Source of the DNA: Actinomadura mexicana
GTDB lineage: Bacteria; Actinomycetota; Actinomycetes; Streptosporangiales; Streptosporangiaceae
Direction of reading: 5' to 3'
Assembly (NCBI RefSeq): GCF_900188105.1
Contig: NZ_FZNP01000014.1
Location: 62,001-126,000 of the forward strand
DNA: 64,000 nucleotides
The position numbers were made by a program, and so were the translations under genes. Below the pieces are notes generated by a model. The model was not told the DNA's origin, made no database searches, and worked only from the letters and a program-made list of their open reading frames with translations. This document shows, piece by piece, positions 9,957 through 13,235 of this stretch. Each line of letters begins with the position of its first letter. The first letter of the stretch is position 1.

Positions 9957-10316
9957 TATCTGCCGTGAATCCCACTCGGCGGGGAACATGCCCGCGCGGC
10001 CCTTCCTGTCGGGGAAGAACGTGCTGTCTTCAGCGCCCGAGTCGCCGCTGCCCGGAAGGCGGGCCTGCTGGGCCGGCGAGGGCGGGCGGACTCGGCGGAG
10101 AGCAGGGAGGCGTGGTGCGGGACGGGCTCCTGGGGCCGCTGGGAAGCATGCCGGAATGGTTGTGAGATCTTGGGGTTGACCGCCCTGGAATTCGGCTGTT
10201 TCGGATGGCAATGGCGAATCATGCCAAACAAAGTTGATCAGTCTTGAGCTTGGCGTAATGGCGCTGCGGGTATAGGACGGAAGACACAATTCGATACGTC
10301 GCTCCGGAGTGTGCCG
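9957..10316. other. Promoter-bearing spacer upstream of the esterase gene
   Basis: No gene is evident in this 360-base spacer. The segment from about 10170 to 10300 is AT-richer than its surroundings. It contains TATAGG at 10271-10276 with CTTGGC 16 bases upstream, a weak candidate promoter for the esterase gene. Confidence 0.35.
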
Positions 10317-11132
10317 ATGCGTCCGTCCCGCCCCTGCCTGGTCGCCTTCGGTGCGGCGACCTTCGCCGCCGCCTCACTTCTCGGGTCCGGGTCCGCTTCT
10401 GCGGCCGGGCCCGACTACGTCGCCCTCGGCGACTCCTACTCGTCCGGCACGGGGGCCGGGAACTACGATCCGAACAGCGGAACGTGCCAGCGCAGCGCCA
10501 ACGCCTACCCGAACCTGTGGGCGGCGTCGCACGCCACGTCGTCGTACAAGTTCGTGGCCTGCTCAGGCGCGACGACCACCACCGTCGCCAGCGGCCAGCT
10601 CGGCGCGCTGAGCTCGTCCACCTCGCTGGTGAGCGTCACCGCCGGCGGCAACGACGCCGGGTTCGCCGACGTCATGCAGACCTGCGTCCTGCAGTCGACC
10701 TCCTCGTGCCAGAGCAGGGTGACGCAGGCGGAGACCTACATGAAGAACACCCTCCCCGGCCGGCTCGACTCGCTGTACGGCCAGATCCGCTCGAAGTCCC
10801 CGTCGGCGCGGGTGGTGGTGCTCGGGTACCCGCGCCTCTACGTCATCGTCGACTGGTGCGCCGGGCTGAGCAACACCAAGCGCACCGCGCTCAACCACGC
10901 CGCCGACACCCTCGACGGCGTGGTCTCCGCGGCCGCGGGCCGCGCCGGGTTCACGTGGTCGGACGTCCGGGACGAGTTCTCCGGGCACGAGCTGTGCTCC
11001 GGCGACGACTGGCTCAACGCGGTCACGATCCCGATCGGCTCGTCCTACCACCCGACCGCGCTGGGCCACCGGTCCGGCTACCTGCCGGCGCTGACGGGCT
11101 CGGCCGGCCTGGCCCTCCAGAAGCAGACCTGA
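10317..11132 (+). CDS. Secreted SGNH-family esterase/lipase
   Basis: The ATG at 10317 has GGAG seven bases upstream. The 271-residue product starts with a Sec signal peptide (MRPSRP then a hydrophobic stretch ending GSASAAGP, cleavage near residue 30). The nucleophile is Ser40 in GDSYSSG, the oxyanion Asn is in TAGGNDAGF, and the catalytic His245 is in SSYHPTALGH. The residue three before the His is Ser rather than Asp, as in the Ser-His dyad esterases of Streptomyces in which a main-chain carbonyl replaces Asp. Six cysteines can form three disulfides, as in that group. The enzyme should hydrolyse extracellular esters or lipids. Its 3' end overlaps by 55 bases the end of a convergent MFS remnant. 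Confidence 0.9.
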   Translation: MRPSRPCLVAFGAATFAAASLLGSGSASAAGPDYVALGDSYSSGTGAGNYDPNSGTCQRSANAYPNLWAASHATSSYKFVACSGATTTTVASGQLGALSSSTSLVSVTAGGNDAGFADVMQTCVLQSTSSCQSRVTQAETYMKNTLPGRLDSLYGQIRSKSPSARVVVLGYPRLYVIVDWCAGLSNTKRTALNHAADTLDGVVSAAAGRAGFTWSDVRDEFSGHELCSGDDWLNAVTIPIGSSYHPTALGHRSGYLPALTGSAGLALQKQT

Positions 11133-11836
11133 CCGGCGAGCACCGCGATCGCGCCGGCCATCAGCGTCGCGCTCACCCAGACGGGCGAGCGGTAGCCGAG
11201 GCCGGCGCCGATCGCGGCGCCGCCGAGCCACGGGCCGAGGGTCCCGCCGACGTTGAACGCCGCGGTGGCGAACCCGCCCGCCAGCGTCGGCGCCGCGGAG
11301 CCCTGCTCCAGGACGCGTGAGATCAGCGCCGGGCCCGTCCCGAACGCCAGCATCCCCTGCACGAACACCAGCACGACCACCGCCGCCGGGCTCCCGGCCG
11401 TCAGCGCGAGGACGGCCCACCCGGCGGTCAGGGACGTCATGCCCGCCGCGATGAGCGCGGCCGGATGCGCGTCGGCGATCCGTCCGGCGATGGTGACGCC
11501 CGCGAAGGATCCGGCGCCGAAGAGCGCCAGCAGCGCCGGCACCCGGGCGGAGCCGAAACCGGCGACGTTCGTGGCGAGCGGCGGGAGGTAGGTGAACGTG
11601 CAGAACGTGGCGCCCTGGAACAGCGCGTTGACGGCGAGGGTGAGCAGCAGGCGGCCGTTCGCCAGGGCGCGCAGTTCGCTGCGGGCGCCGCCCGCGGACG
11701 GGCGCTCCTCCGGAATCGCCTTGGCGATCGCGGCGACGGCGGGCAGGGACACCAGCGCGACCGCCCAGAAGGCGGCCCGCCACCCCCACGCTCCGCCGAG
11801 CACCGCGCCCGCCGGGACCCCGGCGACGCAGAACAT
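11078..11836 (-). pseudogene. MFS exporter remnant lacking its N-terminal third
   Basis: The frame from 11836 encodes about 252 residues beginning VAGVPAGAVLGGAWGWRAAF, which aligns with the loop and fifth transmembrane segment of drug-exporter MFS proteins. About eight membrane segments follow, including the GFGSARVPALLALFGAGSF and GRIADAHPAAL regions. The first four segments, with the usual N-terminal signature, are missing. Full-length relatives are about 390-400 residues. The upstream continuation of the frame is only the antisense of the tetR gene. The first ATG lies inside a palindromic operator that now also serves tetR. I infer that a deletion removed the 5' part of the exporter and fused the rest to the operator region. 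Alternatively, a truncated protein may still be made. Confidence 0.75.
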
Positions 11837-11863
11837 TGTTCTGGTGTGGCAGAATAATGTTCT
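11830..11863. promoter_or_regulatory. Paired TetR-type operators
   Basis: AGAACATTGTTCT (11830-11842) has perfect six-base arms and AGAATAATGTTCT (11851-11863) is a close copy. Their centres are 21 bases apart, two helical turns, so two dimers could bind on one face. The second site abuts the tetR ATG, so no Shine-Dalgarno sequence exists and the tetR message may be leaderless. Autoregulation by the adjacent TetR protein is inferred. Confidence 0.7.
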
Positions 11864-12436
11864 ATGAAGGAGGCCGGACGGGAGCGGATCCTGCGGGCGG
11901 CGCTGGAGCTGTTCGGGCGCGACGGGGTCGCCGGGACCACGCTGAGCGGGCTCAGGGCCGCGAGCGGGGTGAGCGTGGGCAGCTTCTACCACCACTTCTC
12001 CGGCAAGGAGCAGGTGGCGGAGGCACTGTTCGTCGAGAGCATCGGGATGTACCAGGACGCCTTCCTCGCCGAACTGAGGGCCCATGGCGGCGCGCGGGAG
12101 GCGGTGACCGCCGTCGTGGCCTTCCACGTGCGGTGGTGCAGGGAGCATCCCGACCGGGCCCGGTTCATGTTCACCGAACGCCCCGCCGGGAGCGACGGGC
12201 TGGCCGAGCGCAACGGCGCGTTCTTCCGCGAGGTGCGCAGCTGGTGGCGTGTGCAGGCACGGCACGGCGCCCTGCTCGACGTGGACGCGGTGACCGCGTT
12301 CGTCCTGTGGCTCGGGCCCGCGCAGGAACTGTGCCGGCTCTGGCTGAACGGCCAGAGCCCCGAACCGGACGGCCGACAGGTCGTATCGCTGAGCGAGGCC
12401 GCATGGCGGTCGGTGGGAGGTCCCCATGGTGATTGA
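11864..12436 (+). CDS. TetR-family transcriptional regulator
   Basis: The 190-residue product has the TetR N-terminal helix-turn-helix: RERILRAALELFGRDGVAGT, then LSGLRAASGVSVGSFYHHFSGKEQV (about residues 30-52). The C-terminal ligand domain (residues 60-190) includes AVTAVVAFHVRWCREHPDRA. The ATG directly follows two palindromic sites, which fits autorepression. It probably once controlled the divergent MFS exporter, which is now truncated. The next gene, an amidohydrolase, overlaps its end by 11 bases and is likely co-transcribed, so the regulator may now mainly control that enzyme. The ligand is unknown. Confidence 0.9.
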   Translation: MKEAGRERILRAALELFGRDGVAGTTLSGLRAASGVSVGSFYHHFSGKEQVAEALFVESIGMYQDAFLAELRAHGGAREAVTAVVAFHVRWCREHPDRARFMFTERPAGSDGLAERNGAFFREVRSWWRVQARHGALLDVDAVTAFVLWLGPAQELCRLWLNGQSPEPDGRQVVSLSEAAWRSVGGPHGD

Positions 12437-13235
12437 CGCGTGGATGCAGCACGGGACGGTGCGGTTCCTGCGGCACGAGATGCTCGACTCGCTCTGGAGG
12501 TGGACCGGGCAGAAACCGCCGGCGGAGGAGATCCCGGTCGGCACCACGGTCGCGGCGATGGACGCCGGGGGAGTGGACGTCGGACTGATCAGCGCCTGGT
12601 ACGGGCCCGAGGGCGACCTCGTGAGCAACGACGAGGTCGCGTCGTTCGTCCGGCAGGCCCCCGACCGGCTCGCCGGCATCGCCTCGGTCGACCTGCGCAA
12701 GCCCATGGAGGCCGTGCGGGAGCTGAGGCGGTGCGTGGGGGAACTGGGCTTCAGGGGGCTGCGCGTGGTGCCGTGGCTGTGGGAGCTGCCGCCCACCGAC
12801 CGGCGGTTCTACCCCCTGTTCGCCGAATGCGTGGAACTGGGCGTCCCCTTCTGCACGCAGGTGGGTCACACGGGCCCGCTGCGCCCGAGCGAGACGGGTC
12901 GTCCGATCCCTTACGTCGACCAGGTGGCGCTCGACTTCCCCGAGCTCGTCATCGTGGGCGGGCACATCGGCTACCCGTGGACGGAGGAGATGGTCGCGGT
13001 GTGCCGCAAGCACCCGAACGTCTACATCGACACGTCCGCCTACACGGTCCGCAGGTACCCGCCGGAGCTCGTCCGTTACATGGCCCAGGACCGGCACCAC
13101 AAGGTCATGTTCGGCACCAACTACCCGATGCTGACCGCCGAGCGGGCGCTCGCCGGCCTGGACGATCTCGGCCTCGGCGAGGACGCGCGGGAGGCGTTCC
13201 TCGCAGGCAACGCCCGGAAGGTCTTCCGCCTGTAA
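12426..13235 (+). CDS. Amidohydrolase-2 family protein (ACMSD-like TIM barrel)
   Basis: The 269-residue product starts at an ATG with GGGAGG upstream, inside the last codons of tetR. Amidohydrolase-2 motifs are the N-terminal IDAWMQH, then CTQVGHTGP (about 144-152), VIVGGHIGYPW (about 177-187) and MFGTNYPM (about 227-234). Members are metal-dependent decarboxylases or hydratases/hydrolases of small aromatic or dicarboxylic acids. The N-terminal motif is DxWMQH rather than the usual HxH, a recurring variant in one actinobacterial subgroup, so metal ligation may differ. The substrate cannot be named. Confidence 0.85.
   Translation: MVIDAWMQHGTVRFLRHEMLDSLWRWTGQKPPAEEIPVGTTVAAMDAGGVDVGLISAWYGPEGDLVSNDEVASFVRQAPDRLAGIASVDLRKPMEAVRELRRCVGELGFRGLRVVPWLWELPPTDRRFYPLFAECVELGVPFCTQVGHTGPLRPSETGRPIPYVDQVALDFPELVIVGGHIGYPWTEEMVAVCRKHPNVYIDTSAYTVRRYPPELVRYMAQDRHHKVMFGTNYPMLTAERALAGLDDLGLGEDAREAFLAGNARKVFRL

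Follow-up and report, generated by a model that had tools for sequence, protein, structure and literature searches.

A truncated Cmx/CmrA-family exporter gene bordering a predicted TetR operator pair in Actinomadura mexicana

The window analyzed here, a stretch of 64,000 nucleotides of the Actinomadura mexicana genome (G000), contains an MFS exporter frame that lacks its beginning and borders on a palindrome next to a tetR-family gene. The first-pass annotation proposed that the exporter decayed through a deletion ending inside its operator and found a breakpoint so close to a protein-binding palindrome striking. How was the gene truncated, why does the break lie where it does, and did the operator belong to the exporter in the first place? 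Our reading, to which we assign a probability of roughly 0.88, is that a single deletion truncated an exporter that had a promoter of its own, that the palindromes are operators of the tetR-amidohydrolase operon, and that the event was ordinary gene decay.

The exporter remnant and its neighbors

The remnant frame runs on the minus strand from 11836 to 11078 and comprises 252 amino acids counted from the ATG. As the first-pass annotation stated, it starts at the fifth membrane helix: the exporter-derived part corresponds to the C-terminal 250 codons (140-389 of 389), beginning with the VAGVPAG motif of helix 5. Equally correct was the observation that the first ATG (CAT at 11834-11836) lies within the palindrome AGAACATTGTTCT (11830-11842); this ATG and the following TTC, the two codons that precede codon 140, are operator rather than exporter sequence. 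The remnant is 95 % identical to codons 137-389 of the orthologue in genome G005. Intact orthologues span the whole profile of the Cmx/CmrA chloramphenicol efflux MFS transporters (NF033135; 529 bits for the G005 protein), whereas the window copy aligns with profile positions 140-373 and, with 276 bits, falls short of the curated cut-off of 400 bits for a full-length match. Compared with the exporters of this family, the window copy is devoid of the first 139 codons, the promoter and the leader, and neither a promoter of its own nor a ribosome-binding site is recognizable. Thus, it is a pseudogene of the Cmx/CmrA family, and the chloramphenicol-type exporter activity has presumably been lost from it. 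A second, intact Cmx/CmrA paralogue is present elsewhere in the same genome (C17:539790-540905, 482 bits).

On the left, the remnant is convergent with a GDSL lipase/esterase gene (10311-11132, plus strand; PF13472) that is the same neighbor in relatives with and without the exporter and served as the left-hand synteny anchor. The 3' ends of the exporter and lipase genes overlap by 55 bp (window 11078-11132), as they also do in intact relatives such as G005. On the right, the tetR-family repressor gene (11864-12436, plus strand) encodes a TetR_N DNA-binding domain (PF00440, 52.6 bits against a cut-off of 24) and has orthologues in 26 of the 65 genus genomes; its product matches no curated NCBIfam subfamily above the cut-off. 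The start of the subsequent amidohydrolase gene (12426-13235, plus strand; Amidohydro_2, PF04909, 145.6 bits) overlaps the end of tetR, and the two genes adjoin each other in the exporter-bearing relatives and in most of the exporter-less ones. The nearest solved relative of the enzyme is the uncharacterized BB4693 (3irs).

The deletion and the decay of the remnant

Intact orthologues of the exporter occupy the same locus in nine other genomes (G005, G061, G062, G081, G080, G063, G032, G077 and G078), and G000 nests among the exporter-bearing genomes in the TetR-amidohydrolase tree, in which the branch support within the G000/G005/G061/G062 group is low (47-51 %). In G005, the exporter is complete and the TetR protein is 95 % identical to that of the window. 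Relative to this genome, the window lacks 633 bp (L010 836-1468 or an equivalent shift) that encompass the exporter promoter, the leader ORF and codons 1-139. The junction consists of a 3-bp CAG (11829-11831) common to the exporter gene and the outer edge of the operator; the G005 copies of this triplet are at L010 833-835 and 1466-1468, and the sequences are CCCCGGCGACGCAGGCGACGG on the exporter side and CGTACAGAACATTGTTCTGG on the operator side of G005, against CCCCGGCGACGCAGAACATTGTTCTGG in the window. This alignment with intact relatives leads us to conclude that one deletion, about 633 bp long and ending on one side at the operator edge, truncated the exporter. The deletion proposed in the first-pass annotation is thereby borne out and its ends located; its placement inside the operator is not, because both palindromes are complete, the break coincides with the outer edge, and the ATG belongs to the operator.

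Conservation of the same short frame in relatives under purifying selection had been named as potential counter-evidence, and a search allowing up to three mismatches detected the junction in no other genome among the 65 genus genomes. Its confinement to one draft assembly (53 contigs) might point to 633 bp dropped by the assembler, but such an artefact is very improbable given that the overlap at the junction is only 3 bp, that the sequence is single-copy, that the junction is located 73.8 kb inside a 199.6-kb contig and that the remnant carries substitutions at otherwise invariant positions, as expected from decay.

These substitutions include W235R, A222P and G254A. From codon 140 onward, G000 has 6 nonsynonymous and 5 synonymous private changes, compared with 7 and 23, respectively, in three sister genomes (Fisher p = 0.07), a count that leaves out the junction codons contributed by the operator; when these are counted, p = 0.012. 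The tilt fits a recent loss of constraint, without proving relaxation. The deletion is probably recent, which would explain why the frame has remained open. The 252 open codons and pairwise omega values of 0.19-0.44 with the sisters could also be taken as signs of a half-transporter retained under selection. We consider this very improbable, since the frame exists in one genome only and has no recognizable promoter or ribosome-binding site, its branch is tilted to nonsynonymous change, and pairwise omega mostly reflects the time before the deletion. The event is best described as ordinary gene decay. In the genome G006, the Cmx/CmrA gene next to this lipase has decayed independently (L156 2300-3021) and lacks the N-terminal part and an internal stretch; hence, exporter losses recur.

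The operators and the control of the lost exporter

The intact operator 1 (CAGAACATTGTTCTG, 11829-11843), a predicted TetR site, is placed just behind the putative -35 of tetR. Operator 2 (CAGAATAATGTTCTA, 11850-11864), 21 bp from operator 1, overlaps the putative -10 (a conserved CAGAAT) and ends at the tetR start codon; its core, the second palindrome copy AGAATAATGTTCT (11851-11863), abuts the ATG at 11864, as had been noted at first pass. At up to two mismatches, the palindrome has 4 strand-hits in the window where 0.08 would be expected, and in the whole genome (8.8 Mb) the 15-bp form at up to one mismatch is confined to these two sites and a third place. At about 20 orthologous loci, the two palindromes recur upstream of tetR with the spacing of 21 bp, irrespective of the presence of an exporter, and the strict paired motif accompanies tetR in 18 genomes. 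This strict motif was not found at the locus where tetR is missing, the few other matches elsewhere in the genomes looking different, and the exporter-amidohydrolase loci of G001, G009 and G071, which lack tetR, showed no palindrome (three loci read). Thus, the palindromes of the tetR promoter are conserved together with the tetR gene and, at the loci read, absent without it, as expected of an autoregulated TetR.

By comparison with autoregulated TetR repressors that have paired operators, the genus-conserved arrangement described here, with two palindromes 21 bp apart over the edge of the putative -35, the -10 and the start of tetR, suggests that the neighboring TetR uses the palindromes as its operators and probably autoregulates the tetR-amidohydrolase promoter through them. 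Literature searches, which had most subscription papers outside their reach, returned no description of such an operator. The exporter and the amidohydrolase gene are divergent with no tetR between them at L157 (G001), L052 and L053, a layout which implies that the amidohydrolase can exist here without the repressor and without the operators. The -35 position varies widely among relatives (TTGACA, CGTACA, CTGCCA and others), and the proposal that tetR fell silent when the deletion took its -35 was dropped.

Upstream of the intact exporters, at tetR-linked and tetR-less loci alike, a putative -10 element (TANNNT) is followed after 7 nt by a start-proximal leader ORF of the form MS(S/G)PE..RR. 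This ORF of nine codons (MSSPESDRR, with variants such as MSSPEANRR and MSSPEASRR) lies between promoter and gene in 24 of the 29 intact loci listed for the genus, among them loci that have neither tetR nor operators; the consensus MS(S/G)PE(A/S)xRR is represented, for example, on the minus strand of L138 (3660-3843), with equivalents in L039-L053, L057-L068 and L155. The cmrA gene of a Rhodococcus plasmid has MSSPKASRL at the same place, and a leader with PE arose only once among 420 shuffled controls. The ORF is probably leaderless. A sigma-70 consensus scan recognized a promoter in neither version of the locus, and the -10 and -35 assignments rely on conservation only. Rfam yielded nothing credible in the leader region, and no description of the leader ORF was found in the open-access literature. 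Transcription attenuation mediated by uORFs is known for the actinomycete resistance genes whiB7/wblC (PMC11550727), and the intact relatives resemble this system in having the short start-proximal ORF 7 nt after TANNNT, followed by G+C-rich inverted repeats. In contrast to whiB7/wblC (PMC11550727), the exporter leader is known here from sequence alone, and its predicted RNA folds are no more stable than shuffles, with one terminator-like site in G005. In our reading, control of the exporter was separate, perhaps through attenuation.

These features bear on the view that the operator pair first controlled the exporter, as in a classical divergent TetR-exporter pair, and serves tetR and the amidohydrolase alone only since the deletion. 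In its favor are the nine genomes in which exporter and tetR are divergent with operator 1 between them. We nevertheless consider it unlikely: the paired operator occurs at many tetR-amidohydrolase loci that lack the exporter, a separate -10 and leader precede the exporter even at loci without tetR or operators, and the putative exporter -10 lies about 24 bp beyond operator 1 rather than under it. Across the genus, the pair follows tetR, and the exporter was equipped with a separate -10 and leader; the main switch of the exporter was therefore probably never this repressor-operator pair. Hence, of the proposal that the pair outlived the exporter, the survival of the operators and of the tetR-amidohydrolase genes stands, and the role of the pair as the exporter's switch does not. 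Some influence of TetR on the lost exporter is possible because operator 1 is about 40-50 bp upstream of the putative exporter start. A TetR operator adjoining an exporter is no proof that the exporter is its target.

The position of the break and a proposed history

When G005 is compared with exporter-less genomes, homology is confined to the lipase end and a stretch that starts at the outer edge of operator 1 and continues into tetR. The operator edge therefore seems to mark how far constraint around the tetR promoter reaches, and not a special breakpoint. Any deletion leaving the tetR promoter block unharmed must stop at or before the block edge, and its stop within 3 bp of the palindrome, which had seemed striking at first, is a mild coincidence that needs no special mechanism. 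The alternative is a recurrent breakpoint at the outer edge, with the bound repressor or the palindrome itself promoting breakage; the G000 deletion, a 2.4-kb insertion in G080 and the junctions of the exporter-less genomes all start within a few bases of this edge, which would suit such a mechanism, yet selection on the tetR promoter block explains the position and we regard promoted breakage as highly unlikely. The insertion in G080 (L140 3600-6280) separates the exporter leader from operator 1, meets the outer edge of this operator to within a few bases, and carries HAD-like, MgtC-like and RpiR-like genes (named by eye).

Under the reading that we prefer, the ancestral order would have been GDSL lipase, Cmx/CmrA-type exporter and tetR-amidohydrolase operon, with the exporter transcribed away from tetR and driven by a separate promoter with a short leader ORF. 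In this lineage, a single loss of about 633 bp, with the ends rejoined at the 3-bp CAG, would have taken the promoter, the leader and codons 1-139, leaving an inert remnant of 250 codons in an open frame. TetR bound at operator 2, over the -10 and up to the start codon, and at operator 1, behind the -35, would autoregulate the tetR-amidohydrolase promoter, and selection on this promoter block would stop the break, as well as other rearrangements, at the block edge. The comparison shows the deletion, its junction, the intact operators and their phylogenetic coupling to tetR; TetR binding, autoregulation, the loss of exporter activity and an attenuator function of the leader are inferred from it. 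The locus offers a clean example of the loss of a resistance exporter next to a regulatory block that has been retained. With two copies of CAGAAYNWTGTTCTR at a spacing of 21 bp, the operator pair provides a ready test of what the TetR-amidohydrolase pair senses.

Finally, a third palindrome, CAGAACGTTGTTCTG, is located beside TTATCCACA, which is DnaA-box-like, at about 500-530 of L159 (G000:C23:315811-315825); it is possibly a further TetR target or a chance occurrence.
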